Shown here: piece after piece, positions 10,885 to 26,075 of the stretch
Position numbering within the stretch: the first letter of the stretch is position 1
How the letters are laid out: every line of letters begins with the position of its first letter
Assembly (NCBI RefSeq): GCF_026339875.1
Contig: NZ_JAPEPZ010000002.1
Coordinates: 186,001 to 250,000 of the forward strand
DNA length: 64,000 nt
Reading direction: 5' to 3'
Origin: Streptomyces sp. NBC_01571
GTDB taxonomy: Bacteria > Actinomycetota > Actinomycetes > Streptomycetales > Streptomycetaceae
The notes under the pieces: generated by a model
The model's input: the letters and a program-made list of their open reading frames with translations, nothing else
Database searches by the model: none
Told to the model about the DNA's origin: nothing
Position numbers and translations under genes: made by a program

Positions 10885-11058
10885 CTTTCGCTCTCCCTTT
10901 CCATTCTCTCGCTACGGCAGCGGAATGCCATTCATGGCGACATTACCGGCTTGTCCGATCGGGCAGACCGGACAATCATGAGAGATGGGTCACGCGACAA
11001 ATCGGCGGGGCGGCGGGGGTGACATCCGGACGCGCATTTCCCGACGGAGGTGACAGCA

Positions 11059-12484: not shown

Positions 12485-13207
12485 ATGCTGCTGCGTCTGC
12501 CCACGTCCGTGTCCGAAGCACAGGAGTGCATGGCCGAGGGGGCGGAACCGATAGGCGGCGCGACACTGGTCTGGGCCACCTGGCAGCGGGACGGCTTCCC
12601 GGAGCGGGCCATGTCGCTGCGCAACCTGCCGGAGGCCAACGCGATCGGGCCCCGGTCGCTCGGCTCCGCCGTGGTGCTGAACCGGATCGACGACCGTGTG
12701 CCGGAGGTGTTGCGGCGGGCGGCGGGCTCGGTGGGGACCGGAGCCGTCCGCCGGACGGCCACCGTGGGGGGCAACCTCGTCGGCAGCACGCTGCGCTGTC
12801 TGCTGCCCGCGGCACTCGTCCTGGACGCAGGTGCGACGGTGCTGGAACCGGACAGGGTGTACGAGACCGACCTGGCCGAAGTGATCGCCAAGCACCATCT
12901 CCTGCTCAGCCTCCACTGGCGAGAACCCATGGTCAGCGGCTACCACAAGGCGTCCGGCGATGCGGGCGGTCCGCCGCCCCTCGTCGTCGCCACCGCCGTG
13001 CACGCCGACGACGACGGACGCCACCGCCTGAGGGTCGCGGTCCGGGACGGCTACGACGTCCTCTGCGAGAGCGTCGAGTGCGACACGGACTCCGCTCAGG
13101 TGCTCCACACCCTGGACCGTACGGACATCGGCGCACTCCACTCCACGGCTTCGGAGTCGGTCCGCGAACAGGTCACGGCCGTCCTGGCCCGTGTCACCGA
13201 CCGGTGA
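12485..13207 (+). CDS. molybdenum-hydroxylase FAD-binding subunit (CoxM/XdhB-like), orphan
   Basis: A 240-residue protein with the FAD_binding_5 pattern of the medium subunit of xanthine dehydrogenase, CO dehydrogenase and relatives: PIGGATLVWATWQRDG (residues 22-37) and ATVGGNLVGSTLRCLLPAAL (94-113). It is shorter than usual (family about 280-330) because the C-terminal domain is reduced. Such subunits pass electrons from a molybdopterin subunit via 2Fe-2S clusters, yet neither partner is nearby; only a xanthine dehydrogenase tail remnant exists at 5992. The start is the first ATG with homology; ribosome site weak. It may be functional with an unlinked partner, or be a leftover. Confidence 0.75.
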   Translation: MLLRLPTSVSEAQECMAEGAEPIGGATLVWATWQRDGFPERAMSLRNLPEANAIGPRSLGSAVVLNRIDDRVPEVLRRAAGSVGTGAVRRTATVGGNLVGSTLRCLLPAALVLDAGATVLEPDRVYETDLAEVIAKHHLLLSLHWREPMVSGYHKASGDAGGPPPLVVATAVHADDDGRHRLRVAVRDGYDVLCESVECDTDSAQVLHTLDRTDIGALHSTASESVREQVTAVLARVTDR

Positions 13208-13243: not shown

Positions 13244-13750
13244 TCACATCTCGTCGGCCGGAAGCGCGTACAGGTGGGGAAGGTTGACCACGATCGCCTC
13301 CTGGGTGCTGCGGGCGATGACGACCACCGCTTCGTCGTCGGGGTCGGGGTTCTCCTCCCGGTGCGGTACGAACGGCGGGACGAAGATGTAGTCGCCCGGG
13401 GAGGTGCGCAGCCGTACCTCCTCCGGCTCGCTGCCCGAGTCGTCGAGGAAGACGAACTCGGGATGTCCGCTCACCACGTAGATGGCGGTCTCGGATTCTC
13501 CGTGATGGTGGTCGGAGGAGGACGTGGCAGGCGCCACGTGCGTCTGGCCCATCCACAGCTTCTCGGAACCCACGTTCTTCCCGCTTACGGCCGCGAACCT
13601 GCGCATGCCGCCGCTCTGGGCGGTGTCGCCGTCCAGGGAGTCGGACCGGATGTGGTGCAGACGGGTGCGCAGCGGTGCCGCCGGGCGGCCCGCGGTGTCG
13701 TGGAGATGAGGGTGAAAGCCTTCACCAGGGGTCGTCGACGGCTCGCTCAT
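13244..13750 (-). CDS. cupin-domain protein
   Basis: A 168-residue single-cupin protein. Metal-binding motif 1 appears as SSSDHHHGESETAIYVVSG (residues about 78-96), and motif 2 as PGDYIFVPPFVPHREENPD. Such proteins are small metal-dependent dioxygenases, isomerases or sensors. It is divergent from the Rrf2 regulator; a conserved 16-base motif shared with the transporter operon lies in the 138-base spacer, so it is probably part of the same regulon. Convergent with the FAD subunit gene. Substrate unknown. Confidence 0.8.
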   Translation of the reverse strand: MSEPSTTPGEGFHPHLHDTAGRPAAPLRTRLHHIRSDSLDGDTAQSGGMRRFAAVSGKNVGSEKLWMGQTHVAPATSSSDHHHGESETAIYVVSGHPEFVFLDDSGSEPEEVRLRTSPGDYIFVPPFVPHREENPDPDDEAVVVIARSTQEAIVVNLPHLYALPADEM

Positions 13751-13784
13751 GGCCGGGACGCTAGAGCGGGCCGGAAAAGGATGT

Positions 13785-13800
13785 CAAGTGGTGTCCATTG
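13785..13800 (+). promoter_or_regulatory. candidate Rrf2 operator (copy 1)
   Basis: The 16-mer CAAGTGGTGTCCATTG differs at one base from CAATTGGTGTCCATTG at 15285-15300 upstream of the transporter operon. Both copies sit in control regions around the Rrf2 gene. The cupin start is about 35 bases away and the Rrf2 start about 90. Assignment to Rrf2 is inference from position and repetition. Confidence 0.5.
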
Positions 13801-13888
13801 CCGTTCACCTGCGGCAACGTTCCCGCAATGCAGGGCGCGAGCCGTTCGACGCCCTTCGCGCCGCAGGCTCCTCGGGCATGATGTGCGC

Positions 13889-14323
13889 ATGCATATTTCC
13901 GCGAAGGCGGACTACGCCATGCGGGCGCTGCTGGAGCTCGCCCGTGAACCCGCCCGTCCGCTCACCTGCGAGGCCATCGCCTCTTCGCAGGAGATCCCGT
14001 TCCGGTTCCTGAAGTCCGTGGTGGGCGAGCTGCGCAGAGCGGGCCTGGTGCGCAGTCAGCGTGGCTGCGAAGGCGGTTACTGGCTCGGCAGGCCCGCGGA
14101 GGAGATCACCCTGCTGGACGTCGCGCGCGCCGTCGACGGCGAGTTGATCACCCTGCGCGGCGCGCCGCTCGACGGCCTCGACTATCCCGGTCCGGCGGCG
14201 GGCCTGCCGGATGTGTGGCGCGAGGTCGAAGCGGGCGCGGCCGCGGTCCTGGGCGGGGTGACCCTGAGGTCGTTGCTGCCCGGGGCAGCGGCCGGCGGGC
14301 TGGCCCGGACGGGCGCCGCGTGA
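13889..14323 (+). CDS. Rrf2-family transcriptional regulator
   Basis: A 144-residue Rrf2 protein. The ATG gives the canonical N-terminus MHISAKADYAMRALLELA with winged helix SQEIPFRFLKSVVGELRRAGLV and the RSQRGCEGGYWLGRPAEEITLLDV signature. Only C27 and C60 are present, so the three-cysteine Fe-S cluster of IscR/NsrR types is absent. That points to the CymR-like subgroup, which in Bacillus controls sulfur metabolism. Its stop overlaps the GTG of the DsbA-like gene (GTGA), and the cysteine-leader transporter operon follows. I infer it is the local regulator of sulfur acquisition. Confidence 0.88.
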   Translation: MHISAKADYAMRALLELAREPARPLTCEAIASSQEIPFRFLKSVVGELRRAGLVRSQRGCEGGYWLGRPAEEITLLDVARAVDGELITLRGAPLDGLDYPGPAAGLPDVWREVEAGAAAVLGGVTLRSLLPGAAAGGLARTGAA

Positions 14324-15219
14324 CCGGCTCGCCGGTGCCGCCGGTGGTCGAAGTGGTGGAGTACACCGACCCGTTGTGCCCGTGGGCCTGGGGATCCGAG
14401 CCCGTCTTCCGCAAGTTGCGGGCGGCGCTGGCCGGCCGGGTGCGCTGGCGGCGGGCGTACGCCATCCTCTTCGACCACGACGACGACCCGCCGCCCGACC
14501 CGGCGGCGGAGACCGCCTGGTACGCGCGCTACGTCGAGGAGATCAGCGCGCACAGCCACGCCCCGCGCGCCCTGCGGCTCAGCCGTGTGGCGGCCAGCTC
14601 CTGGCCCTCTTCCCTGGTCGCCAAGGCCGCCGAACTCCAGGGCGGTGACGTGGCCGAGCGGGTGCTGCGACGGCTGCGGGAGACAGTCTTCGTCCTCGGG
14701 GAACCGGCGGACACCGCCGCACTGGCACTGTCCGCGGTACGCGGCACGCCGGGACTCGACCTGCGGCGGCTGACCGCCGAGGCCGCCTCCGAGACGGTGC
14801 TGGAGCAGGTGCGCGCCGACCGGGCTGAGGCCCGTCGGCCGGTGCCCGAGGTGCTGGCGCCGGGGGGCGGGTCACCGCATCCCGGCGCCGCCAAGGAGAC
14901 CGCCGACGGCGGGCGCCGGTACGCGCTGCCAACCCTGCTGGTCCGGTCCCCCGCGGGGTGTCGCGCGGTGCCCGGCTGGCGGTCCTTCGAGGAGTACGCC
15001 GCCGCCGTCGACGCGTTCCGTCCCGGGCTGCTGAGGGTCCCCGCACGGCTCTCCCCGGCGGACGCGCTGGAGCGCTACCGGAGCCTGACGGACCCCGAGC
15101 GGCGGCTGCTCACGGACGGTGCGTGGCCGCCGGCGCACGCCGTGCGGGTGGACACCGGCAACGGCCCGTTGTGGCTGCACCCCGATGAGGCCGCCGTGCA
15201 TCCCGCCGCCGGCCGCTGA
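14320..15219 (+). CDS. DsbA/FrnE-like thioredoxin-fold protein
   Basis: A 299-residue cytoplasmic protein with the N-terminal strand VVEVVEYTDPLCPWAWGSEP. The active-site Cys is C20, but the motif is CPWA rather than CPHC, leaving a single cysteine as in many FrnE/2-hydroxychromene isomerase-like members. A helical insertion (about 40-180) and the cis-Pro loop region (RYALPTLLV, about 200-208) follow. It overlaps the Rrf2 stop by four bases, so it is translationally coupled to the regulator. A thiol-redox or glutathione/mycothiol-conjugate role fits the sulfur-themed neighbourhood, but this is inference. Confidence 0.8.
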   Translation: MTGSPVPPVVEVVEYTDPLCPWAWGSEPVFRKLRAALAGRVRWRRAYAILFDHDDDPPPDPAAETAWYARYVEEISAHSHAPRALRLSRVAASSWPSSLVAKAAELQGGDVAERVLRRLRETVFVLGEPADTAALALSAVRGTPGLDLRRLTAEAASETVLEQVRADRAEARRPVPEVLAPGGGSPHPGAAKETADGGRRYALPTLLVRSPAGCRAVPGWRSFEEYAAAVDAFRPGLLRVPARLSPADALERYRSLTDPERRLLTDGAWPPAHAVRVDTGNGPLWLHPDEAAVHPAAGR

Positions 15220-15278
15220 GCACTCCCCCCTGCCCCGCGCGTCTCTGATCTGCGATCAGTGACCGTCCCGCCGAATGA

Positions 15279-15300
15279 GACACCAATTGGTGTCCATTGA
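15279..15300. promoter_or_regulatory. perfect palindromic operator with motif copy 2
   Basis: GACACCAATTGGTGTC (15279-15294) is a perfect 16-base palindrome. Its right half extends into CATTG, giving the 16-mer shared with 13785-13800. A TTGACA hexamer (15297-15302) directly adjoins it. A promoter here would start transcription just ahead of the leader peptide, although the -10 is not clear (GAGGCT at 15310 or CAGGAT at 15321 are options). Confidence 0.6.
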
Positions 15301-15333
15301 CAGCCGGTCGAGGCTGCCCCCAGGATGTGCAGC

Positions 15334-15408
15334 ATGCTCACGACGCACCCCGGTGTGGTGTGCCGCTACGTGGACCTGCGGCGCACCAGCAGCGCACTCT
15401 GTCGCTGA
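15334..15408 (+). CDS. cysteine-containing leader peptide (attenuator uORF)
   Basis: A 24-codon ORF: ATG at 15334, AGGA ribosome site at 15322-15325, stop TGA at 15406-15408. The product ends VVCRYVDLRRTSSALCR. This matches the widespread actinobacterial 'putative leader peptide' pattern (RR/CR-x-VDL-x-R-x-SSALC-R) found upstream of cysteine and sulfur-assimilation genes. Two cysteine codons (TGC at codon 10, TGT at codon 24) could sense cysteinyl-tRNA. The C-rich leader and the transporter operon lie directly downstream. In mycobacteria related cysteine uORFs act as attenuators; the same role here is inferred. Confidence 0.8.
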   Translation: MLTTHPGVVCRYVDLRRTSSALCR

Positions 15409-15809
15409 CCTTCCGCCGCCCCCGGCCCGCAGGCGCCTGACCGCCGCTCTCGGCACCGGCCGCCCGCCACACGCCCGAGCCGCGTCCGTCCCCCTGCGTC
15501 CGCGCCTCCGCCTCAGCGCCTCCGTGCACCGTCGCACGCCTTCTCCGTCTCCGGGCCCGCCTCCGCGGACCCCCGACATTCCCTGCCCTGGGCGCCGCGC
15601 ATCCCGATTGTGCGCGGTCGCCTCCCCCGGTATGCCCGCCCGGGTCCCGGTCGACGGTGCGTACGGGCGTCGAGCCGGGCCCCGCGCCCTGCTCCCTCGC
15701 CTGCGCTCCTGTTCCCTGCGCCTTCTCCCTCTCGCTGCCTCCGCTCCGCCCGTCGCGCTCCGCTCCTTCCGCCGCGGGCCGGGCCGGGGCCCACCACAGG
15801 AAGAAAACG
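15409..15809 (+). promoter_or_regulatory. long C-rich, G-poor operon leader (possible Rho-dependent attenuator)
   Basis: 401 bases without a supported gene between the leader peptide and the binding-protein gene. The strand is strikingly pyrimidine-rich: in 15421-15540 a hand count gives 66 C and 33 G of 120. Unstructured C-over-G RNA is what Rho utilisation sites look like, so premature termination when the leader peptide is fully translated is plausible. Frames through it have no recognisable protein content. Confidence 0.5.
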
Positions 15810-17384
15810 ATGCCCGCTCAACTCACCACCCAGCGCCGCAGACTGGCTCTCCCTTCAGCCCGACGGACCCGCGGCCCGCGCACCGCCGCCCTCGCCACCG
15901 CCTTCGTCGCACTGCTCGCACCCGCCCTCAGCGCGTGCGGCGGTGACACCGCAGCCGCGGGTGGCGGTGCCACGTTGAAGTGGACGTCCTCGTACTTCCC
16001 GACCCACTGGGACCCGGTGGTCGGGGGCAGTGGTGCCCAGTTCCGCGAACTCGCCCTCACCTACGCCTCGTTGACCCGTACGGACGAGACGGGCAAGGCC
16101 GTTCCCGACCTCGCCAGGAGCTGGGAGTACAACGCGAAGGGTGACGAGATCACCTTCCATCTGCGCCCCGGCCTGAAGTTCAGTGACGGTCAGCCGGTCG
16201 ACGCCGCCGCCGTCAAGGCGGCCATCGAACGGGCCCAGAAGCAGAAGAACTCGGCACTCTTCGGCGACCTGACCTCCATCAAGTCGGTGGACGCCGAAGG
16301 ACTGGACGCGGTCCTTCACCTGACCCAGGTCGACTACCAGATCCCTCAGTTGCTCGGTGAGCGTGTGTTGCAGATCGCCAGTCCCCAGGCGGCGAAGAAC
16401 CCCGCGAAGCTGGACCAGAACCCGGTCGGCGCCGGTCCGTTCACCGTCACGCAGCTGATCCCGGGGACCAAGGCGGTCCTCAGGAAGAACCCGGACTACT
16501 GGGACGCGAAGAACATCCACATCGACAACGTCGAACTGACCTCCGCTCCGGACGCCTCCACGGTCGTCTCCGGTCTGCAGACCGGCGTCTACAACTTCGC
16601 CGACCTGGACCCGAGTCAGGCGTCGGCCGCCAGGAAGGCCGGCCTCGACGTCTTCGTACAGCCGGGCTTCAACGCCTCGAACCTCAGCCTGAACATCAAC
16701 AAGGCGCCGTTCGACAACGGCAAGGTCGTCGACGCCGTCCGCCACGCGATCAACCGTCAGGAGTTCGTGGACAAGCTGACGTTCGGTTACGGCGAGGTCA
16801 CCGACCAGCCGTTCCCCAAGGGGTACGTGGCCTACGACCCGAAGTCCGAGGCCGACTACCCCTACGATCCGGCGAAGTCGAAGCAGTTGCTCTCCGAGGC
16901 GGGCTACGAGGCGGGCGACATCAAGCTCGACCTGGTGATCCCCGCGGACGACCCGCAGGCGGAGATCGTCCAGTCGCAGTTGGCCAAGGTCGGCATCACG
17001 GTCACCATCAAGGTCGACAAGAACTGGGCCACCCCGTTCTTCGCGAAGAACCTGAAGTTCTCGCTGTACGGGACCACCGGCCGTGACTCCGCGGCGCAGA
17101 CCCTGACCGCCCACTTCGGTCCCAACGGCCCGCTGAACCTCAGTTCGCCCTACGAGCCGGCCGGTTTCGAGGCAGCCATCGCCAAGGTCCGCCAGACCCC
17201 ACTGGACTCGCCGGACTACGCCAAGGTGCTGCAGGCGGCGACCCGGGCGGGTCTGAAGAGCAGGGCCCTCGTCTTCACGTACTCGCAGCCGAACCTCATC
17301 GCCAAGAGCAAGTCGATCTCGGACCTGCCGAAGAACCCGGCCCACATCGACTGGACCGGCGTGACCATCTCCCGCGGCAACTGA
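15810..17384 (+). CDS. ABC transporter substrate-binding lipoprotein (SBP_bac_5)
   Basis: A 524-residue family-5 solute-binding protein (DppA/OppA/NikA type). The start follows AGGAAG at 15799. A lipoprotein signal ends LLAPALSACGG with lipid-attachment C43. Family features include LTYASLTRTDETGKAVPDLARSW (about 72-94), HLRPGLKFSDGQPV and GAGPFTV. It delivers the substrate to the two permeases encoded directly downstream. Family-5 proteins bind peptides, nickel-chelates or many other organics. With two flavin monooxygenases in the operon and a cysteine leader upstream, an organosulfur compound is the likely ligand; this is inference. Confidence 0.92.
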   Translation: MPAQLTTQRRRLALPSARRTRGPRTAALATAFVALLAPALSACGGDTAAAGGGATLKWTSSYFPTHWDPVVGGSGAQFRELALTYASLTRTDETGKAVPDLARSWEYNAKGDEITFHLRPGLKFSDGQPVDAAAVKAAIERAQKQKNSALFGDLTSIKSVDAEGLDAVLHLTQVDYQIPQLLGERVLQIASPQAAKNPAKLDQNPVGAGPFTVTQLIPGTKAVLRKNPDYWDAKNIHIDNVELTSAPDASTVVSGLQTGVYNFADLDPSQASAARKAGLDVFVQPGFNASNLSLNINKAPFDNGKVVDAVRHAINRQEFVDKLTFGYGEVTDQPFPKGYVAYDPKSEADYPYDPAKSKQLLSEAGYEAGDIKLDLVIPADDPQAEIVQSQLAKVGITVTIKVDKNWATPFFAKNLKFSLYGTTGRDSAAQTLTAHFGPNGPLNLSSPYEPAGFEAAIAKVRQTPLDSPDYAKVLQAATRAGLKSRALVFTYSQPNLIAKSKSISDLPKNPAHIDWTGVTISRGN

Positions 17385-17415
17385 CATCCGTCCACTACAG
17401 AGAGGGGGCAACTCC

Positions 17416-18444
17416 ATGACGACGACAGCGGTACCGGCCGCGCCTGCCCGGCGTCGCGGGGTCGCCGTGACCAGGGTGCGGCACACGCTGGGCCGTGTCC
17501 TGGTCGCCCTCGCCCGGTCGATCGCGATCTTCGTGCCCGTCTTCCTGGTCGCGACGTTCGTGACGTTCGCGCTACGGTCGCTGAGCGGACTCAGCCCGGC
17601 GCGGATCCAGCTGGGCGAAGAGGCGACTCCCGAGGCGATCCACCGGGTCGAGTCCCAGTGGGGGCTGGACCGGCCCTTCCTGGTCCAGTACTGGGACTGG
17701 TTCAGCGGTGTCCTGCACGGACAGCTCGGCGCCAGCTGGACCAACGGCGCCGACATCTCCACGCTCATCGGCCTGGGCCTGGAAGTGAGCCTCTCCGTCG
17801 CGACGTTCGCGCTCGTCATCGGCGTACTCGTCGGTTTCGTCCTGGGTACGGTGGCGGCGCTGCGGCGCACCACATGGGTCGACCGCGCGATCACGGGCTT
17901 CGTCACCCTCATCTCGGTGATGCCGGCCTTCGTCGTCGGCATCGTGCTGGTCGCGGTCTTCGCGGTCGGGCTCCATGTGTTCCCCTCCGCCGGCTACATC
18001 CCGGCACGGCAGGGAATCGGCCCGTGGCTCGCGCACATCACCCTCCCGGCGATCGCGCTGAGCTTCGACGTCGTCGCGGACGTCGCCCGCCAGCTCCGCG
18101 GCAGTCTCGTCGCGGCCTACCGGGAGAACTACGTGACGGGCGCGGTGGTTCGCGGACTGGGCACACGCCGGATCTTCCTCGTGCACGTGCTGCGCAACGG
18201 CATCGGACCGGCGCTCGCCACCCTCGGCCTGAAGTTCCCCGCGCTCGTCGGGGCCTCGGTCGTCACCGAGTGGATCTTCGGCCTGCAGGGCTTCGGCAGG
18301 TTCGCCAACGACTCCGCCCAGGCCGGCGACGTACCGGCCGTGCAGGGCGTCCTCGTGGTGTCGATCGTCCTCGTCGTCCTGTTCAACCTGATCGTCAACC
18401 TGGTGCTGGCGCGCGTGACGCCGGCCTCCCGGCGGGGGGTATGA
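17416..18444 (+). CDS. ABC transporter permease, DppB-like
   Basis: A 342-residue inner-membrane permease. An N-terminal cytoplasmic stretch is followed by six membrane segments (first near residues 35-55), with a long extracellular loop after the first as usual for DppB types. The EAA-type coupling motif reads YVTGAVVRGLGTRRIFLVHV (about 237-256). A GAGAGGGGG ribosome site precedes the ATG. The stop overlaps the next permease start (ATGA), showing translational coupling. Confidence 0.92.
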   Translation: MTTTAVPAAPARRRGVAVTRVRHTLGRVLVALARSIAIFVPVFLVATFVTFALRSLSGLSPARIQLGEEATPEAIHRVESQWGLDRPFLVQYWDWFSGVLHGQLGASWTNGADISTLIGLGLEVSLSVATFALVIGVLVGFVLGTVAALRRTTWVDRAITGFVTLISVMPAFVVGIVLVAVFAVGLHVFPSAGYIPARQGIGPWLAHITLPAIALSFDVVADVARQLRGSLVAAYRENYVTGAVVRGLGTRRIFLVHVLRNGIGPALATLGLKFPALVGASVVTEWIFGLQGFGRFANDSAQAGDVPAVQGVLVVSIVLVVLFNLIVNLVLARVTPASRRGV

Positions 18445-19334
18445 CCATGGTGCGCCACGTCCTCTCCCTCGCGTCCGGCCGGATCGCCGTCGCCATCCTG
18501 ACCGTGATCGCCCTGTTCGCGGTCCTCGGACCGTTGCTCGCCCCGCAGAACCCCCTCGCCACCAGCGACCACACGCTCGCGGCCGCGTCGGGCGCGCACT
18601 GGCTCGGTACGGACTACCTGGGCCGTGACGTGCTGAGCCGGCTGCTCGACGGCTCCCGTGTCAGTGTGCTCGGCTCGCTCGAAGTCGCCCTGATGGCACT
18701 GGTGGTCGGCGCGATCCCCGGCATGCTGTCGGTCTACCTCGGCCGGGTCTTCGAGTGGGTCACCCTCCGGCTGGCCGACACCCTGGTCGCGCTGCCGTTC
18801 CTGCTCTTCGCGGTCGCGGTGATCGCGCTGCTCGGCAACGGCATCACCCAAGCCATGTTCGTCACGGGCGCGTTGGTCTCCCCGCTCTTCTACCGGGTGG
18901 CCCGCGCCGCCACGCTGGCCGTCGCCCGCTCGCAGTACGTGGAGGCCGCGCTGATCTCCGGTGCCTCGATCGGCTGGATCGTACGGCGCCATGTGTGGGT
19001 CAAGGTGCTCCCGCCGATCGCCGTCGCACTCGCCCAGACCATCGGCGTCGGCTTCATCATCGTGTCGAGCCTGACGTTCCTCGGCATCGGGGTCCAGCCT
19101 CCCGCGCCCACCTGGGGCGGCCTGCTCGCCTCGGACCTCGGCTACCTCAGCTACCAGCCGTGGGCGCCCCTCGCCCCCGCGGTTCTGATCATGGTGACGG
19201 TCTGGGCCAGCAACCTGCTCGCCGATGCGATCCGCGACGTCTCCGGCGAGGCGGGCCGGGCGTTCGTCAACAACCGCAAGGCTCGCGCCAACCGCCTCGA
19301 CAAGTCAGAGCCCGTTCCCACCGGAGGTGCGTGA
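18441..19334 (+). CDS. ABC transporter permease, DppC-like
   Basis: A 297-residue permease starting MTMVRHVLSLASG. It has the DppC hallmark HWLGTDYLGRDVLSRLLDGS (about 53-72) and the EAA loop YVEAALISGASIGWIVRRH (about 166-184). Six membrane segments. It overlaps the previous gene by four bases and the next by one (TGATG). With DppB it forms the transmembrane channel. Confidence 0.92.
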   Translation: MTMVRHVLSLASGRIAVAILTVIALFAVLGPLLAPQNPLATSDHTLAAASGAHWLGTDYLGRDVLSRLLDGSRVSVLGSLEVALMALVVGAIPGMLSVYLGRVFEWVTLRLADTLVALPFLLFAVAVIALLGNGITQAMFVTGALVSPLFYRVARAATLAVARSQYVEAALISGASIGWIVRRHVWVKVLPPIAVALAQTIGVGFIIVSSLTFLGIGVQPPAPTWGGLLASDLGYLSYQPWAPLAPAVLIMVTVWASNLLADAIRDVSGEAGRAFVNNRKARANRLDKSEPVPTGGA

Positions 19335-20287
19335 TGACGACGCTGTCCCAGAACGCCGCCCGCGAAAGGACCCACGGTGCCGCGGCCGCCGACGCGCCCG
19401 GTACGACGGGTGCGACCGGTACGACCTCTGCGACCGGTACACCGGGTACGCCCGGTGCGACCGGTGCCACAGCCGCCCCCGTGCTCGCCGTCCGCGGGAT
19501 GCACATCAGTGACCTGGCCGGCGACCGTGAGATCGTGCACGGGGTGAGCTTCGAGCTCACCCCCGGCAAGGCCGTCGGCATCGTCGGTGAGTCCGGCAGC
19601 GGAAAGACCCTCACCTGCCGCGCCGCGCTCGGCATCCTGCCCCCGCACTTCGAGGTCACCAGCGGCTCGATCGAGATCACCGGCACCGACATCGCGACCC
19701 TGACCCCGCCGCAGTGGACGGCTCTGCGTGGAGCCACGATCAGCGCGGTCTTCCAGGATCCGGCGTCCTACCTGAACCCCTCGATCCGAGTGGGCCCTCA
19801 GATCGCCGAGGTCGTCCGGGTCAAGAAAGGACTGAAGCGGCGGGAGGCGCGCCATCGCGCCGTCGAGCTGCTGCGGGCGGTGCAGTTGCGCGACCCGGAA
19901 CTGGTCTACGGCCAGTACACCCACGAGCTCTCGGGAGGCATGCTCCAGCGCGTCCTGATCGCGGCGGCGATCGCCGCCGATCCGCGGATCCTCATCGCCG
20001 ACGAGGCCACGACGGCACTCGACGTCACGGTCCAGGCCGAAATCCTCGATCTGCTGGCCGAGTTGCGCCGGCGCGCGGGTCTCGCCCTGGTGGTCGTCTC
20101 CCACGACCTGGCCGTCGTCGCCCAGCTCTGCGACGAGGTCCTCGTGCTGCGTCGGGGCGAGGTCGTGGAGCACGGCCCGACCGAGGCGGTGCTCCACCGT
20201 CCACGGCACGAGTACACCCAGTTGCTCATCGCCGAACACGAGCAGTACGGCCTGGAGAAGTTCCTCACGCCGACGGAGGCCTCATGA
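19334..20287 (+). CDS. ABC transporter ATP-binding protein, DppD-like
   Basis: A 317-residue nucleotide-binding protein. Walker A GESGSGKT (about 87-94), Q-loop FQDP, signature LSGGM (with Met in place of Gln), Walker B ILIADEATTALD and the H-loop SHDLAVV are intact. Residues 22-48 are an odd Gly/Thr/Ala linker built from degenerate GTAC-CGGTGCGACCG repeats in the DNA, absent from usual DppD proteins; it probably forms a flexible N-terminal tail. Confidence 0.92.
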   Translation: MTTLSQNAARERTHGAAAADAPGTTGATGTTSATGTPGTPGATGATAAPVLAVRGMHISDLAGDREIVHGVSFELTPGKAVGIVGESGSGKTLTCRAALGILPPHFEVTSGSIEITGTDIATLTPPQWTALRGATISAVFQDPASYLNPSIRVGPQIAEVVRVKKGLKRREARHRAVELLRAVQLRDPELVYGQYTHELSGGMLQRVLIAAAIAADPRILIADEATTALDVTVQAEILDLLAELRRRAGLALVVVSHDLAVVAQLCDEVLVLRRGEVVEHGPTEAVLHRPRHEYTQLLIAEHEQYGLEKFLTPTEAS

Positions 20288-21147
20288 CCGCCGCACTCAC
20301 CCCGGACGAGTCCGCCGGCACCAACCAGGACGCCGTCCTCGAGGTCACCGGCCTGGACGTGCACTACGGCCTGCGCCGCCGGCGCCGTCGCGCCCTGCAC
20401 GGACTCTCGCTGAGCGTCGCGCCGGGCGAGACCGTCGGGGTCATCGGCGAGACGGGGTCGGGCAAGTCCACCTTCGCCCGTACCGTGCTCGGCCTGGTCC
20501 GCGCTTCGGCGGGCCGGATCGTCATCGGCGGCGAGGACGTCAGCGCGTACGGCCCACGCCAGTGGCGCGGTCTGCGCCGGCGCGGTGTGGTCCAGTACGT
20601 CTTCCAGGACCCGCTGCGCAGCCTCGACCCCGACCTGACCGTCGAGGAGTCCCTGGTCGAGCCGCTGCTCGTGCAGGGGGTCGCGCGGACGGAGGCGGCC
20701 GACAGGGTCCGTACCTTCCTCGCCCGCGTGCGCCTCTCGGAGGAGCTGCTCGACCGGCTGCCCGGGGAGCTCTCCGGGGGCCAGCGGCAGCGGGTCGCGG
20801 TGGCCCGGGCGCTGGTCACCGAGCCGCGGCTGGTCATTCTCGACGAGCCCGTCAGCGCTCTGGACTCCGCGAACCGCGTCCAGGTCCTGCAGATCCTCAA
20901 GGAACTCCGCGCCGCCGGCGTGGCCCTCGTCTTCATCTCGCACGACCTCGGGTCCGTCGCCGGGATCGCCGACCGCATCGCGGTGCTCTACCAGGGCGAA
21001 CTCGTCGAGGTCGGTGCCGCCCGGGACGTCATCACCCACCCGCGGCACGACTACACCCGTCTGCTCGTCAGCTCCGCGCCCACCCTGCGGACTGCCTCGG
21101 CCGACCGGGCCGAGCGCGACGCGCTGCGTGCCCTGCTGCACGCCTGA
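20284..21147 (+). CDS. ABC transporter ATP-binding protein, DppF-like
   Basis: A 287-residue second ATPase. Walker A GETGSGKS (about 59-66), signature LSGGQRQR, Walker B LVILDEPVSALD and H-loop SHDLGSV are all present. A basic RRRRRR stretch lies near residues 32-37. It starts with a four-base overlap on DppD. It makes the transporter complete (one binding protein, two permeases, two ATPases). Confidence 0.92.
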   Translation: MTAALTPDESAGTNQDAVLEVTGLDVHYGLRRRRRRALHGLSLSVAPGETVGVIGETGSGKSTFARTVLGLVRASAGRIVIGGEDVSAYGPRQWRGLRRRGVVQYVFQDPLRSLDPDLTVEESLVEPLLVQGVARTEAADRVRTFLARVRLSEELLDRLPGELSGGQRQRVAVARALVTEPRLVILDEPVSALDSANRVQVLQILKELRAAGVALVFISHDLGSVAGIADRIAVLYQGELVEVGAARDVITHPRHDYTRLLVSSAPTLRTASADRAERDALRALLHA

Positions 21148-21265
21148 GCGCGGCACGGAACCCAAGAACCACTCCACCGGGGATCTCCCGAACCCACGGT
21201 TCCCGGAACCAGCGATCCACAGAACTCAGATCCTCAGAGCCTCAGAAGCACGGAGAGGAACACCC

Positions 21266-22606
21266 ATGTCCCGCACCCTTCACCTCGCGCTGCACCCCTA
21301 CGGTGTCGGCGGCCCCGGCCAGCACGGTCTGTGGAAGGACCCGCGCGTCGCGAAGAACGCGAGCATCGACATCAACTACTACATCGCGCAGGCCAAGGCG
21401 GCCGAACACGCGCTCTTCGACGCCCTGTTCATCGTCGACAGCCAGTTCATCAACTCCACCTACCCGGCGCACTACCTGAACCGGCTGGAGCCGCTCACGC
21501 TGTTGTCGGCGGTCGCCACCCACACCCGGCACATCGGCCTGGTGGGCACAGCGAGCTCGACGTACAACTCGCCCTTCAATCTCGCCCGTCGGTTCGCCTC
21601 CCTCGACCACATCAGCGGCGGCCGCGCGGGCTGGAACGTCGTCACCAGTTTCGACACCGGAACGTCCAGGAACTTCGGGCTCGACGAGCACCTCGACTAC
21701 ACCACGCGCTACGGCCGCGCGCTGGAGTTCGTCCAGGTCGCCAGGGGTCTGTGGGACTCCTACGAGGACGACGCGTTCCCGGCCGACGTGGAGCGCAACG
21801 TCTTCCTCGACCCGGCCAAGCTGCACGCGCTCGACCACGAGGGCGAACACTTCAAGATCGCCGGGCCGCTCAACCTCTCCCGCTCTCCGCAGGGCCAGCC
21901 GGTGATCTTCCAGGCGGGTGTCTCCGCGGAGGGGCGCGACCTCGCGGCGCGGGTCGCCGAGGGCATCTACGCGCCGGGCGGCAGCCTGCAGCAGGCGCAG
22001 GAGTACTACGCGGACATCAAGTCGCGCACCGCGTCGTACGGCCGCGACCCCGAGCACATCAAGATATTCATCCACGGCGGCCCGGTCGTCGCCTCCACCG
22101 ACGAGGCGGCCAGGCGGCGCGAGCAGGAGATCTTCGAGGAGGACAACGACTTCGACCGCAACCTCGCGCTCCTCGGCCGTTCCTTCGGCGCCTACGACTT
22201 CAGCGGGCACGACCTGGACGCGCCGTTCCCGGACGTCGCGCACCTCGCCGAGAAGGGCGGCCGTACCGGCGCCACCAAGCTCATCGAGCGCGCCCGGACA
22301 GAGAATCTGACGCTACGTCAAGTGGCGCAGTCGGTCAGCGAGTTCCGCCGCTCGCCGTTCGTCGGGGCGCCGACGACGGTCGCCGACACCATCGAGCAGT
22401 GGTTCGCCGCGGGTACCTTCGACGGCATCAACCTCGCCTTCCGCACCGACGACGACCTGGAACTCTTCGTCGACGGTGTCGTGCCGATCCTGCAGAAGCG
22501 GGGCCTGTTCCGCACCGAGTACGCGGCCGACACCCTGCGCGGCAACCTCGGCCTGCCGGTCCCGGCCAACCGTCACACCCGCGAGCCCCAGCTCGTGAAC
22601 GGCTGA
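21266..22606 (+). CDS. LLM class FMN-dependent monooxygenase (NtaA/SnaA/DszA type)
   Basis: A 446-residue luciferase-like monooxygenase. Start supported by GGAGAGGA. Motifs of the long NtaA/SoxA/DszA subfamily: LIVDSQFINS-like strand near 58-65, RLEPLTLLSAVA, IGLVGTASSTYNSPFNLARR (about 91-110), LDHISGGRAGWNVVTS (about 113-128) and SRSPQGQPVIFQAG. These enzymes use reduced FMN and O2 to oxygenate substrates such as nitrilotriacetate, sulfones or sulfonates, and need a separate flavin reductase, which is the last gene of this cluster. The 118-base gap from DppF still allows a single operon. Confidence 0.9.
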   Translation: MSRTLHLALHPYGVGGPGQHGLWKDPRVAKNASIDINYYIAQAKAAEHALFDALFIVDSQFINSTYPAHYLNRLEPLTLLSAVATHTRHIGLVGTASSTYNSPFNLARRFASLDHISGGRAGWNVVTSFDTGTSRNFGLDEHLDYTTRYGRALEFVQVARGLWDSYEDDAFPADVERNVFLDPAKLHALDHEGEHFKIAGPLNLSRSPQGQPVIFQAGVSAEGRDLAARVAEGIYAPGGSLQQAQEYYADIKSRTASYGRDPEHIKIFIHGGPVVASTDEAARRREQEIFEEDNDFDRNLALLGRSFGAYDFSGHDLDAPFPDVAHLAEKGGRTGATKLIERARTENLTLRQVAQSVSEFRRSPFVGAPTTVADTIEQWFAAGTFDGINLAFRTDDDLELFVDGVVPILQKRGLFRTEYAADTLRGNLGLPVPANRHTREPQLVNG

Positions 22607-22616
22607 GGGCAGGATC

Positions 22617-23492
22617 ATGACCGGACTGTCGGATACGGGTGGGCGCGACGTCCACACCGTCCGGTTCCCGCTCGCCACGCCACCGACGGCGGTGGACGTG
22701 CTGATCGTCGGCGCGGGTCCCGTCGGCCTGTCGGCGGCGGTCGAGTTGACCGCCCGGGGCGTCCGGGGCGCCGTCGTCTGGAAACTGGCCGCGGTGGTCA
22801 GGGGCCACGCGCCCACGACACTGCTCGACTCCTACGACCAGGAGCGCCGCAGGCACAACTGGAGGGTCGCCGACCACTCCCTCGAACGCTCGCGGCGCGC
22901 GCAGCGGACCCTCGCGGAACTCCGCGAGGGCGGCACTCCGGACGACGCGGATCTGAGCCCCGAGGCCTTCCGGCGCCGGAGCGAGATCGGAGAGCGACTG
23001 GGCCGGGACCGCTCCGGCGCGGCGGGCGTCGCCTACGACGAGCGCTGCGACGCCTCGACCGCCATCCGGTACGAACCCGGCCAGCTCGACTCCGAGCCCC
23101 GCTGGCGCGCGGACGTCTACGAGGACGACCCGCGGCCGGGGCACCGGGCGCCCGACGGACTCATCGATCCGTACGGGGGCACGCTCCACGACCGCGTCGG
23201 CGACTCGTTCGCCCTGCTCGTCCTGACCGAGGACCGCAGTGTCGAGCGGGCCTTCGTCCTGGAGGCCGCGGCGCGCTCGCTGCCGTTCACGGTGATCCAC
23301 CTGACCGATCCCGAGGCCCGCGCGGTCTACGGCACCGGCCATGTGCTCGTACGTCCCGACCGGCACGTCGCCTGGCGCGGCACGGAGCTTCCCGACGCGG
23401 GTGCGGCCGCGGTCCTCGACCGGGTACTGGGCGGCGCCCGCGACGGGACGGTGACGCCCGGTCTCGTCGCGGCGGGCGCGGCCGGCCGATGA
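22617..23492 (+). pseudogene. FAD monooxygenase (PheA/TfdB type) with in-frame internal deletion
   Basis: A 291-codon uninterrupted frame that joins both ends of an aromatic-ring-hydroxylase-like protein. Residues 27-50 carry the N-terminal FAD Rossmann motif (VLIVGAGPVGLSAAVEL). The sequence then jumps at about residue 52 to WKLAAVVRGHAP and LLDSYDQERRRHN, which in full-length homologues (about 530-590 residues) lie some 250 residues further on. The substrate domain and the second FAD motif (GD...P) are lost. The C-terminal thioredoxin-like domain (about 195-285) is intact. It keeps its place in the operon, 10 bases after the LLM gene, so polarity is maintained although catalysis is unlikely. 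Confidence 0.75.
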
Positions 23493-23574
23493 GCGGGCCC
23501 GGCCACCTCGGCATCGATCCCCCTCCCCCGTGACCGGGGAACGACACGGTCCGATCCCTGAAAGGCGAGCACTC

Positions 23575-24603
23575 ATGACCCCCCTGACACCGCGGTTCAG
23601 ACTCGGCTTCCTCACCCACGTCCAGGGCCGCGGCGACGACCTGGCGCGGACGTACCGGAACGCGCAGGAGCTCTTCGTCGTCGCCGACGAACTCGGCTTC
23701 GACACCGGCTGGGTGGCCCAGCACCATGTGCCGGCCGGTGGTGGCGGCCTCTCCTCGCCGTGGACGTTCCTCGCCCACGCCGCCGCGCGGACCAGGCGGA
23801 TCCGCCTCGGCACCGCCATCACCGTCCTCCCGCTGGAGGACCCGGTCCGGCTCGCCGAGGACGTCGCCGTCGTCGACACGCTCAGCGGCGGGCGCGTCGA
23901 GATCGGTGTGGGCAGCGGCTACAGCGACACGGAGTACGCCGCGTTCGGCCAGGACGTCGCCCGCAAGCGCGAGTTGACCAGCGAGAAGCTGGGCGTGCTG
24001 CGCCGGGCGCTGGCCGGCGAGGAGGTGCGTACACCCGGTTTCCGCATCCAGCCGACGCCCGGTGACTTCACGGACCGGATCTGGCAGGGGGTCTTCAGCG
24101 GCCCCGGCGCGCGGCACGCCGCCGGCGGCGGCTCGAACCTCCTGCTCAACCGCGCGGCGTACGGCTTCGACGCTCCCACCGACGAGGTGCAGCGCCCCTG
24201 GGCGGACGCGTTCCTCGACGCCTGGGAGAAGCCGCGCCGTCCACGGATCGGGCTGTCCCGGTTCGTGTTCCCGGCGAAGGACAGACGCACGGCTCTTCGG
24301 CAGATCGGCGACGACGTCCACCGGGCGGCTCTTCGCCATGGGGAGAGCGCCGCCTTCCCGAAGGACCTGGGCGTGGACGAGGCACTGCGTCGCTTCCACT
24401 CCTTCTACGGCCATCCCGACGAGATCACCGCCGCGCTCCGCGAGGAGAAGGTGCTGCCGGTCGCGACCGACCTGATCACCCAGTTCAACCCCGCCGTCCC
24501 CGACCACGACGCCGCGATCCGTGCCCTTGAGCTCATCGCGACCGAAGTGGCGCCCGCCCTGGGCTGGAAGCCCGCGACCGTGCCCGACCTCGCAGGAGCG
24601 TGA
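23575..24603 (+). CDS. LLM class flavin-dependent oxidoreductase (short type)
   Basis: A 342-residue luciferase-like flavoprotein beginning MTPLTPRFRLGFLTHVQGRG. Motifs: DTGWVAQHHVPAGGGG (about 41-56), RLGTAITVLPLEDPVRLAEDVAVVD (about 78-102) and LSGGRVEIGVGSGY (about 103-116). A GAAAGG site precedes the ATG. It shares little with the longer LLM enzyme upstream, so the operon likely makes two sequential oxygenations or acts on two substrates. One base separates its stop from the next gene. Confidence 0.88.
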   Translation: MTPLTPRFRLGFLTHVQGRGDDLARTYRNAQELFVVADELGFDTGWVAQHHVPAGGGGLSSPWTFLAHAAARTRRIRLGTAITVLPLEDPVRLAEDVAVVDTLSGGRVEIGVGSGYSDTEYAAFGQDVARKRELTSEKLGVLRRALAGEEVRTPGFRIQPTPGDFTDRIWQGVFSGPGARHAAGGGSNLLLNRAAYGFDAPTDEVQRPWADAFLDAWEKPRRPRIGLSRFVFPAKDRRTALRQIGDDVHRAALRHGESAAFPKDLGVDEALRRFHSFYGHPDEITAALREEKVLPVATDLITQFNPAVPDHDAAIRALELIATEVAPALGWKPATVPDLAGA

Positions 24604-24604
24604 G

Positions 24605-25435
24605 ATGACCCAGTACACCGACTACTACGGCCCCGAAGGCCTCCGGACCCGCGGCACGATCGTCGTGGTGCCAGGTCGCGGCGAGGGCCGGGCCGCCTAT
24701 GCCCGGTTCGGCAGGCGGCTCGCGGCCGACGCCTACCGCGTCCGCGTCGTCGACGCCCCGCGCATCGACGCCGACGATCTGACCGGCTCGCTGGCGCGGT
24801 TCGGCGCCGGGATCGCCGCGGCCGTCGGGGGTACCGCGGCCGAGGACGGGGTGGTCCGTCCTGTCGTCCTCGTCGGGGCCGACACCGGCGCCGCCGCCGT
24901 AGCCGCGCTCCTCGGCCAGGGGGAGTCACCTGTCGTCCGGTTGCCGGAGGCCGTCGTTCTCGCGGGACTGCCGGGACGCGGTGCCGACACCGACGACACC
25001 GACGGCACCGACGGCTCGGGGAACACCGGCAACACGGGCGCTGCGGAGGGTGCGGGGCGATCGTGGGAGGACGAACTCGATGTCCGTACCTTCTGCCCGG
25101 CCCACCGAGCAGTCCTCACCGACGACTCCGGGACACAGCGGGGCTCGCTCGGCACCGCGGTGCCGGATGCGCTGCTCGACGCGGCCCACCAGGGCGACAT
25201 CGCCGTCCCCACCCTGATCCTCGTCGGCGACGCCGATCCGCTCGCGGACCGCGACGCTCTCACCCGCACCGCGAAGTCCCTGTCGCGCGGCCGCCTGGCG
25301 GTGGTCCGGGACGCCCACCACGACGTCCTCAACGACCTGCAGCACCGCTCGGTGGCGGCCGAGGTCGTCACGTTCCTGGAAACGGTCCGCAACACGCTGG
25401 TGCCCGTCGTCACGGTGGAGTCGAGCGCGTGGTGA
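24605..25435 (+). CDS. alpha/beta-hydrolase fold protein with Asp at the nucleophile elbow
   Basis: A 276-residue alpha/beta-hydrolase. Core strands: GTIVVVPGRGEG (17-28, oxyanion region) and VVLVGADTGAAAVAAL (87-102). The elbow is Gly91-Ala-Asp93-Thr-Gly95 instead of G-x-S-x-G. The acid loop is LILVGDADPLADRD and the histidine DAHHDV near the C-terminus. Residues 128-145 form a low-complexity Asp/Thr/Gly insertion from ACACCGACG-type DNA repeats. Asp at the elbow occurs in haloalkane dehalogenases and epoxide hydrolases; it may also mean loss of esterase activity. It overlaps no gene but is one base from the LLM gene, so it is co-translated. Confidence 0.8.
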   Translation: MTQYTDYYGPEGLRTRGTIVVVPGRGEGRAAYARFGRRLAADAYRVRVVDAPRIDADDLTGSLARFGAGIAAAVGGTAAEDGVVRPVVLVGADTGAAAVAALLGQGESPVVRLPEAVVLAGLPGRGADTDDTDGTDGSGNTGNTGAAEGAGRSWEDELDVRTFCPAHRAVLTDDSGTQRGSLGTAVPDALLDAAHQGDIAVPTLILVGDADPLADRDALTRTAKSLSRGRLAVVRDAHHDVLNDLQHRSVAAEVVTFLETVRNTLVPVVTVESSAW

Positions 25436-25498
25436 CGGCCGGCCCCGTCGGTGAGCGCCCCTGGCGGCCCGCTACCGCGAACCCGTGCCGTGCGGCGC

Positions 25499-25524
25499 GG
25501 TCCGTCCGGCCCGCCGGACGGACC
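25499..25524. other. perfect intra-operon hairpin
   Basis: GGTCCGTCCGGC (25499-25510) and GCCGGACGGACC (25513-25524) form a 12-bp perfect stem around CC. It lies between the hydrolase and the flavin reductase. It may attenuate or stabilise the transcript rather than end it, since the reductase seems to belong to the cluster. Confidence 0.5.
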
Positions 25525-25559
25525 GGATCCGCCACCCCGACCCGCCGAAAGGAAACGGT

Positions 25560-26075
25560 ATGACCGCCCCTCTGCACCGCGACGCGCCACCGCCGCCGGT
25601 GGCTCCCGACGGCGCGGACCTTCTCCGCGACACCCTGCGCCGGCACGCGGCCGGGGTCACGGTGATCACCTTCCCCGGCCCCGTCGGCTTCACCGCCACA
25701 TCGTTCACCTCCGTCTCGCTGCGCCCGGCCCTGGTGTCGTTCTGCGTCGGCGTCGAAGCCTCCAGCGCCCCCGCAGCCCGCCGCGCGGACCGGTTCGCGG
25801 TCCATGTGCTCGGCACGGCCAACGCCGGTCTGGCGAGCCGGTTCGCCCGCAGTGGCGTGGACCGTTTCGCCGGCGTCCCCTGGTGGGCCCAGGCGGACGG
25901 TCTGCCCGTGCTCGACGGGGTCACCGCCTGGCTCTCCGCGCGGATCACCCTCCGTCAGACCGTCGGCGACCACCTGCTGGTCGTCGGCGAGGTCGACGCG
26001 GGCGCCGCCGCCGCGGAAACCACGGCACTCGTGCACCACAATGGATCGTTCGCCTCGGCGCACCCTCTGGCATGA
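25560..26075 (+). CDS. flavin reductase (FMN-binding, HpaC/SsuE-like partner)
   Basis: A 171-residue flavin reductase-like split-barrel protein. The core RDTLRRHAAGVTVITF, VGFTATSFTSVSLRPALVSFCVG (about 42-64), FAVHVLGTANAGLASRFA and the C-terminal GDHLLVVGEV (about 136-145) match short-chain NAD(P)H:FMN reductases. It would supply reduced FMN to the two LLM monooxygenases upstream. Start supported by GAAAGGAAACGGT. It is the last gene of the block. Confidence 0.9.
   Translation: MTAPLHRDAPPPPVAPDGADLLRDTLRRHAAGVTVITFPGPVGFTATSFTSVSLRPALVSFCVGVEASSAPAARRADRFAVHVLGTANAGLASRFARSGVDRFAGVPWWAQADGLPVLDGVTAWLSARITLRQTVGDHLLVVGEVDAGAAAAETTALVHHNGSFASAHPLA

Follow-up and report, generated by a model that had tools for sequence, protein, structure and literature searches.

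We report that a gene cluster of Streptomyces sp. NBC_01571, contained in a stretch of 64,000 nucleotides (nt) that we call the window (positions 186,001 to 250,000 of contig NZ_JAPEPZ010000002.1), probably constitutes an operon for organosulfur import and C-S bond cleavage under the control of a local Rrf2 operator and a cysteine leader peptide. The cluster is a conserved, unnamed locus of the Streptomyces type, shared with Streptomycetaceae relatives. A sequence-only reading of the window had named most of its genes, and all of these were found in the order stated: Rrf2 regulator, DsbA-like protein, leader, binding protein, two permeases, two ATPases, luciferase-like monooxygenase (LLM) 1, LLM2, hydrolase, and flavin reductase. 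An FAD monooxygenase fragment encoded between the two LLMs and a cupin gene divergent from rrf2 had been missed and were added (Table 1). The dual Rrf2 and cysteine-leader control that was proposed at the same time is well supported as an architecture, with operator and leader conserved across loci. Repression by Rrf2, its signal, the involvement of Rho, the substrate, and the order of steps are what we infer from this architecture. A search of open-licence literature, as far as the texts in it were accessible, found no earlier description of the cluster, operator, or leader. If the reading is right, about one-fifth of the sampled Streptomycetaceae (60 of 297 genomes) possess a previously undescribed locus for organosulfur scavenging, equipped with a testable two-layer switch.

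Related loci were sampled using the hydrolase, chosen as an independent bait. It matched in 62 of the 297 family genomes (E ≤ 1e-10), and 34 of the matched regions, 24 close and 10 weaker, were fetched. All but one (L073) contained the cluster, and Rrf2 is encoded in each of these 33 loci as well as in the window. The 24 close loci keep the order cupin-rrf2-dsbA-binding protein-permeases-ATPases-LLM1-hydrolase. The interval between LLM1 and hydrolase varies among them: 8 have a full-length FAD monooxygenase there, 14 have LLM2, 4 have both, and 6 have neither. The other nine loci represent a sister subtype, with transporter pieces that are 36 to 62% identical. Orthologous operons that lack both leader and Rrf2, which would have spoken against the proposed control, were absent from this hydrolase-chosen set (0 of 33). 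Within the set, L064 has a frameshifted leader, and in the draft L070 several frames, including rrf2 and dsbA, are broken. A scan of named genomes with an Rrf2 alignment, from which 80 of 121 relatives were kept, returned cupin, rrf2, and dsbA matches in all 80 loci, which come from Streptomyces, Kitasatospora, Actinacidiphila, and Streptacidiphilus. An Embleya record matched the promoter-leader stretch at 82.5%.

Upstream of the leader, the window and all 33 related loci contain GGTGTCCATTGACA with at most one mismatch. Four variable bases separate it from an upstream GAGACACC (33 loci) or GAGACATC (L066). The resulting inverted repeat, GACACC-N4-GGTGTC, merges with its right arm into the -35 element TTGACA. 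Allowing two mismatches, this candidate operator was detected in 60 of the 297 family genomes and its reversed control in none; 7 of 396 genomes in a phylum sample contained it, although three of these matches (G407, G044, and G487) seem to be due to chance. Rrf2 orthologues (E ≤ 3.1e-50; next match, 2.5e-39) were found in 57 family genomes, 56 of which have the operator. Among the 240 genomes without an orthologue, only four contained an operator match. Two of these (G044 and G119) had two mismatches, with no leader in G044; G173 and G075 have real leaders. In 77 of the 80 Rrf2-found loci, an operator with at most three mismatches is followed by a short cysteine-containing open reading frame (ORF); of the other three, L173 and L177 stop at a contig edge and L192 has no operator. 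If the reading is right, the repeat is a candidate for the operator of a cysteine-related Rrf2 regulator in actinomycetes.

The 12-mer TGGTGTCCATTG has exactly two copies in the 11.5-Mb genome, 1.5 kb apart, one in the leader promoter (15288) and one in the cupin-rrf2 gap. Since this copy number is unremarkable for a genome of that size, the weight rests on the placement at both promoters of one cluster. The copy in the gap belongs to an element with one good half-site. A strict pattern for it matched 93 of 114 loci, and its conservation in 34 intergenic regions was judged by eye. The other side of the half-site is the TTGACA of the predicted cupin promoter, seen by eye as TGTCAA in the same 34 regions; the cupin message is probably leaderless. 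As the operator copies overlie the -35 elements of both leader and cupin promoters, a bound protein would block both, and we infer the neighbouring Rrf2 to be the protein in question.

Several further elements were observed near these operators. The cupin-rrf2 gap contains a second element, TTCACCTGCGGCAACGTTCCCGCAAT (13804-13829), with an inverted repeat TGCGG...CCGCA that by eye is kept in subtype 1, not in subtype 2. At L086 (G141:C146:39533-39556), a second operator copy is accompanied by a decayed leader, with no cluster gene in 3 kb; an ORF upstream of it resembles, by eye, a chitin-binding polysaccharide monooxygenase. Operator and leader share a 3-kb region with an LLM1 homologue at L096 (G075:C104) and with a flavin reductase homologue at L102 (G173:C6), in both cases without a binding-protein match there. 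The latter two arrangements suggest that the operator-leader unit moves between sulfur genes.

A promoter pattern was matched by 107 of the 114 loci. The 34-locus and 80-locus sets overlap, and these promoters correspond to 89 distinct sequences. The distance from TTGACA to the -10 element was 17 to 18 nt in all 107, and the leader ATG followed 6 to 7 nt on in 105. The pattern partly imposes this geometry, as it specifies the end of the -35 and an A..AT-type -10. Outside the pattern were two loci at contig edges (L173 and L177), one with no operator (L192), and four with an operator bearing one to three mismatches (L175, L176, L190, and L199). A simple promoter scan found none, as it requires 9 of 12 consensus bases. 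From the spacing between -10 and ATG it follows that the transcript would start at the ATG, and the leader is thus probably leaderless. Several leader peptides of S. lividans are reported to be leaderless in the accessible part of PMC8079986.

The leader itself probably begins at the second ATG (15334), because the first (15325) overlaps the -10 element, and several relatives lack it or have it in another frame. It fits a cysteine leader by motif and context: the ORF is short, contains DLxR and, nine residues beyond the Asp, a cysteine, and lies before a sulfur-type operon; the DLxR...Cys motif was read off the leaders of the window genome. An intact leader is encoded in all but one of the 34 cluster loci (the window included). 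The string CTC TGT CGC TGA closes the leader region in every one of the 34 fetched loci and was also detected in 74 of the 80 Rrf2-found loci, while some Kitasatospora-type leaders end in LCL. This conservation would be hard to explain unless decoding of the cysteine codon matters.

Scanning the window genome with NF042934 yielded 13 matches at E ≤ 1. Two at 15 bits inside a 1,637-amino-acid (aa) frame were set aside, leaving ten sister leaders besides that of the window (11 in total, L031 to L041). Three of the ten precede sulfur genes that score above model cut-offs, namely, SfnG (631.6 bits; cut-off, 383), cysteine dioxygenase, and a ThiS-like gene with cysteine synthase. Another three precede sulfur-type genes below cut-off or ambiguous: a nitrite/sulfite reductase (best NCBIfam name, nitrite reductase), an SsuC-like permease, and a sulfurtransferase-like gene. 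Sulfur-type genes are thus downstream of six of the ten. Redox enzymes follow three others (an NtaA-type LLM, a flavin reductase, and a 2-oxoglutarate-Fe oxygenase), and a gene without a Pfam match follows the last. A cysteine follows the conserved Asp at a distance of nine residues in 10 of the 11 leaders (not in L036), and its codon is UGU in all 10; among cysteine codons in cluster genes of 34 loci, UGU accounts for 51 of 464 (11%). These sister leaders are a candidate Streptomyces cysteine leader regulon, which the UGU signature, if right, makes testable with reporters.

The region between the leader stop and the binding-protein gene (214 to 450 nt) contains more C than G in all 34 loci, with a mean skew of -0.25. 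Only 0.16% of 1,272 windows of 400 nt across the 64-kb stretch are as skewed as the post-leader region of the window. The 250 nt after each of the 11 leaders of the genome are skewed in the same direction (mean, -0.23), though individual values down to -0.11 also occur in 12 to 19% of background windows. A classical intrinsic attenuator was rejected, as neither a terminator-like site nor an Rfam match was found in the post-leader region. Masking of the Shine-Dalgarno sequence by the leader, as in the mycobacterial model, found no support: in a fold model of the 34 loci, covering the leader made no systematic difference to access (mean, 0.51 against 0.53). A Rho-dependent decision after the leader appears to be the best remaining idea. 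Rho dependence has been suggested for mycobacterial cys operons in the available portion of PMC1262725.

Short ORFs of mycobacteria that are leaderless and respond to cysteine were reportedly described by Canestrari in 2020. Such ORFs are discussed in the portion of PMC13236596 that could be consulted, and cys leader peptides had been predicted by Seliverstov in 2005 (PMC1262725, in part). The present leader resembles both in being probably leaderless, in the cysteine codon near its stop, in the sulfur operon downstream, and in that no intrinsic terminator was found. It differs by the lack of a cysteine run, by the DLxR...C motif with UGU, by the operator on the -35 element, and by no sign of Shine-Dalgarno masking.

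A number of observations weigh against this reading of the control region. The leader scored 22.1 bits with NF042934 (22.8 in the genome scan), which is under the cut-off of 27, and its 24 aa contain two separated cysteines in place of a polycysteine run. The assignment as a cysteine leader peptide made in the sequence-only reading therefore holds for motif and context, not for the model threshold, and concerns a shorter form. The leader is shifted in L064 and L157 and divergent in L104, L111, and L185. In 17 genes of the window itself, UGU makes up 8 of 30 cysteine codons, a larger share than in the 34-locus set. No recognisable operator is present in L192; G071 has an Rrf2 orthologue without an operator match; and the reversed operator matched once (G474) in the phylum sample of 396. 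As operator and Rrf2 gene share one locus, their co-occurrence is no proof of binding. The argument for Rho is one of composition.

With regard to function, desulfurisation by the cluster is likely, because the reductase slot holds SsuE in 23 of the 24 close orthologs and the sister subtype encodes SsuD- and SfnB-like enzymes. SsuE was model scored in L044 only (TIGR03567, 219.8 bits; cut-off, 164), and the other 22 were assigned by homology to L044; L062 has an HpaC/FerA-type reductase as in the window. All nine loci of the sister subtype encode an SfnB-like dehydrogenase, SsuD-like LLMs, and an HpaC-type reductase. In L072, the only sister locus that was scored, three SsuD-like proteins reached 210, 221, and 397 bits (cut-off, 518) and the SfnB-like protein reached 105 bits (cut-off, 431), so that all remain below their cut-offs. 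The organosulfur role put forward in the sequence-only reading is strengthened by this exchange of SsuE- and HpaC-type reductases, by the sister subtype, and by the sulfur-type genes behind the sister leaders.

We hypothesize the following sequence of events. When sulfur is sufficient, Rrf2 dimers on GACACC-N4-GGTGTC would cover the -35 element and keep the import and desulfurisation operon off; via the half-site, Rrf2 would also hold cupin and rrf2-dsbA off. When sulfur is short, Rrf2 would be released and a leaderless message would begin at the leader ATG. With adequate Cys-tRNA, the leader would be translated to its stop, exposing the C-rich stretch to Rho, which would terminate transcription. 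With cysteine short, the ribosome would stall at the UGU beside the stop, and transcription would continue into the importer genes. The importer would then take up an organosulfur compound, the flavin reductase would provide reduced flavin mononucleotide (FMNH2), and LLM1 would cut the C-S bond, with LLM2 or the FAD monooxygenase as an optional pre-oxidation step. The hydrolase may work on the product or the substrate.

It is possible, though in our estimate not probable, that sulfonates or sulfones are the substrates of the cluster and that they yield sulfite by chemistry like that of SsuD, SfnG, or Dsz. The sister subtype, with the same operator and leader and with SfnB-like and SsuD-like genes in nine of nine loci, argues for it, as does SsuE in the close orthologs, and the cluster shares with the Ssu and Sfn systems the logic of a two-component FMNH2 monooxygenase. 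LLM1, however, scores only 48 bits with the SsuD model (cut-off, 518) and 87 bits with that of SfnG (cut-off, 383). Among solved structures it is nearest to YtnJ (388 bits), which we take to be CmoJ, followed by 3sdo (362), 7e36_B (295), DszA (245), a LadA-type alkane monooxygenase (229), and DmoA (218). The release of sulfite from sulfones or sulfonates, as claimed in the sequence-only reading, is therefore not borne out by the position of LLM1. LLM2 also falls below the KPN_01858 cut-off, and the importer is of the peptide type. The binding proteins are 38 to 45% identical between the subtypes, so the substrates probably differ.

The resemblance of LLM1 to YtnJ/CmoJ points to another alternative, the salvage of S-alkylcysteine thioethers or sulfoxides as in Bacillus subtilis. 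Clusters for S-modified cysteines in that organism combine an importer and a redox protein, and their cysteine genes are under the control of CymR, an Rrf2 regulator. The ytmI/ytn and scm (yxe) clusters share with the present one the CmoJ/ScmK-type TIGR03860 monooxygenase; the present one also encodes a thioredoxin-fold protein and additional flavin monooxygenases. According to the part of PMC10863075 available, CmoJ cleaves an N-acetyl-S-alkylcysteine sulfoxide, and a second flavoenzyme, CmoO, acts before it in the ytn pathway, a further likeness. As described in the accessible text of PMC12757645, acetyltransferases and deacetylases are further components of the B. subtilis clusters. In contrast, profile searches of the 13 cluster genes found neither, and the cluster also differs by its Opp/Dpp-type importer, hydrolase, cupin, and cysteine leader. 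In addition, 6 of the 24 close orthologs have neither LLM2 nor the FAD monooxygenase, and the LLMs of subtype 2 are SsuD-like. Salvage of the ytn kind is, on balance, unlikely.

The operator might also belong to another, global sulfur regulator, with the Rrf2 gene merely adjoining it. GAGAC, which is part of the left operator arm, occurs 41 to 64 nt upstream of 6 of the 11 leaders of the window genome (L032, L034, L037, L038, L040, and L041), that of the window among them. Against a background of about 10%, this corresponds to a p of about 3e-4 in a post hoc test, and GAGAC is a possible site of such a regulator. However, the full palindrome (at most one mismatch) is found in the window genome only at the cluster, and operator matches in genomes without an Rrf2 orthologue were limited to the 4 of 240 described above. 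We regard this explanation as improbable and retain the local Rrf2 as the candidate binding protein.

Mercapturates (N-acetyl-S-alkylcysteines) are export products of mycothiol detoxification. Cysteine repair in the mycothiol world could be imagined, in which mercapturates would be imported and dealkylated by LLM1 in the manner of CmoJ. Being already acetylated, they would need no acetyltransferase, which would explain its absence. As part of the same joint reading, the overlapping Rrf2 (Cys27 and Cys60) and DsbA-like (CPWAW) genes would encode a thiol-state sensor, layered with a UGU-containing, Rho-dependent leader common to about ten other operons. Taken as a whole, this is a long shot. Least probable is a non-sulfur substrate (an aminopolycarboxylate, a polymer, or natural-product tailoring) with an accidental sulfur link, because the intact cysteine leader in 33 of 34 loci, the tie of this leader kind to sulfur-type genes, SsuE, and metY/metX directly downstream in L049, L063, and L215 (MetY of L049 and L215 is identical, hence these two are not independent) outweigh the naming of TIGR03860 after NtaA, the match of LLM1 to EDTA monooxygenase (194 bits), and the similarity of LLM2 to a Klebsiella enzyme (8k74, its closest PDB entry) that the part of PMC11354265 available reports to act on poly(acrylic acid).

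The regulator is a member of the Rrf2 superfamily (PF02082, 106.5 bits; cut-off, 30). The label CymR-like given to it in the sequence-only reading is correct at this level; with the CymR model NF047409, it scored 64 bits, below the cut-off of 195. The three C-terminal cluster cysteines of IscR/NsrR were not found in it, whereas the paralogue L081 in the same listing has three spaced by six. The absence of Fe-S cysteines noted earlier is hence right for the IscR/NsrR type, but Cys27 and Cys60 are kept in all 34 aligned proteins. We liken the regulator, with no claim of orthology, to the CymR/Rrf2 protein of Rhodococcus qingshengii IGTS8, which differs by the global role proposed for it in the accessible part of PMC8557817. 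The start of the DsbA-like gene overlaps the rrf2 stop, and DPxCPW[AS]W is present in 33 of 34 DsbA-like proteins; the best solved relative, 6ghb (UPF0413 GK0824), matches weakly (35.6 bits). Rrf2-DsbA was considered as a widespread pair and rejected: DsbA matched in 14 of 296 phylum genomes, 10 of them outside Streptomycetes, and the corresponding loci of about 3 to 4 kb had no match to the window's Rrf2.

The importer that had been called Dpp type matched Opp, Dpp, and Nik models, in each case below the cut-off. The lipobox pattern is present in 30 of 34 binding proteins. LLM2 is an accessory component judging from its distribution (14 of 24 close orthologs). The FAD monooxygenase of the window lacks residues 55 to 343 of the L044 homologue through an in-frame deletion and is probably inactive; it is full length in 8 of the 24 close orthologs, and the other 16 gave no match. 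The unusual Asp-elbow hydrolase noted earlier was corroborated, with D-x-G-A invariant in all 34 aligned proteins; the stricter [GA][AS]D[ST]GA fits 32. Asp93, Asp211, His239, W-x2-EL, CPxHR, and HDxLND are kept in 33 aligned homologues. Two of five structure models reached a predicted local distance difference test score (pLDDT) of 81 (the rest, 50 to 57); in the model used (mean pLDDT, 81.4), the elbow lies between strand 87-92 and helix 94-104. A fold search returned generic lipase-like alpha/beta hydrolases with no pointer to the substrate.

Table 1. Features of the cluster and its control regions (window coordinates)
Feature	Position	Strand	Evidence or remark
Cupin, divergent from rrf2; HHHGxSE and PHREEN metal-ligand motifs intact	13244..13750	-	Pfam Cupin_2, 38.2 bits; 33 aligned
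Predicted cupin promoter, TTGACA (13787-13782), 18 nt, TAGCGT (13763-13758)	13758..13787	-	Sequence reading; ATG 7 nt on
Autoregulatory operator candidate GGATGTCAAGTGGTGTCCATTG, one good half-site, cupin-rrf2 gap	13779..13800	+	Contains TGGTGTCCATTG; element by eye in 34 loci
Rrf2 family regulator, 144 aa	13889..14323	+	TIGR00738, 107.7 bits (cut-off, 73.3)
DsbA/YjbH-like protein, single-cysteine CPWAW site	14320..15219	+	Pfam Thioredoxin_5, 46.2 bits
Operator GACACC-N4-GGTGTC plus CATTGACA, overlapping -35 TTGACA (15297-15302)	15279..15302	+	Candidate; 60/297 family genomes
-10 hexamer CAGGAT	15321..15326	+	18 nt after -35, 7 nt before leader ATG
Cysteine leader ORF MLTTHPGVVCRYVDLRRTSSALCR*, 24 aa, UGU at codon 23	15334..15408	+	NF042934, 22.1 bits
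C-rich, G-poor untranslated region, candidate Rho-loading stretch	15409..15809	+	GC skew, -0.28
Family-5 substrate-binding protein, lipobox-like LSACGG	15810..17384	+	Pfam SBP_bac_5, 241 bits
Opp/Nik-type permease 1	17416..18444	+	NF045470, 209.5 bits (below cut-off, 350)
Opp/Nik-type permease 2	18441..19334	+	NF045474, 191 bits (below cut-off, 300)
Opp/Nik-type ATPase 1	19334..20287	+	NF047576, 248.8 bits (below cut-off, 385)
Opp-type ATPase 2	20284..21147	+	NF011659, 232.7 bits (below cut-off, 540)
LLM1, NtaA/DmoA family FMN-dependent monooxygenase	21266..22606	+	TIGR03860, 493 bits (cut-off, 279.7)
Group-A FAD monooxygenase, internally deleted, 291 aa	22617..23492	+	Compared with 592-aa L044 homologue
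LLM2, nearest TIGR04027 (KPN_01858 family)	23575..24603	+	280.8 bits (below cut-off, 412.9)
Alpha/beta hydrolase, Asp93 at nucleophile elbow, Asp211 and His239 conserved	24605..25435	+	Alignments and structure model
HpaC/FerA-type flavin reductase	25560..26075	+	Pfam Flavin_Reduct, 114.7 bits

The cupin gene forms the left border of the cluster and was identified in all but one of the 34 loci (the window included); the exception is L076, whose fetched stretch stops at the cupin position. Its neighbours farther left, a dehydrogenase gene (11050-12192) and an ORF (12485-13207), were rejected as members, as neither the 33 nor the 80 orthologous loci contained a match to them. By eye, the ORF resembles the FAD-binding subunit of a molybdopterin dehydrogenase; it had no NCBIfam match at E ≤ 1e-20. 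On the other side, metY/metX was rejected as a constant partner, being found in only two of the 33 loci and in L215. The latter, from Streptomyces sp. NBC_01558 (NZ_CP109366.1), carries the whole cluster on a 678-kb linear plasmid adjoining metY and metX, and the annotation there is generic.

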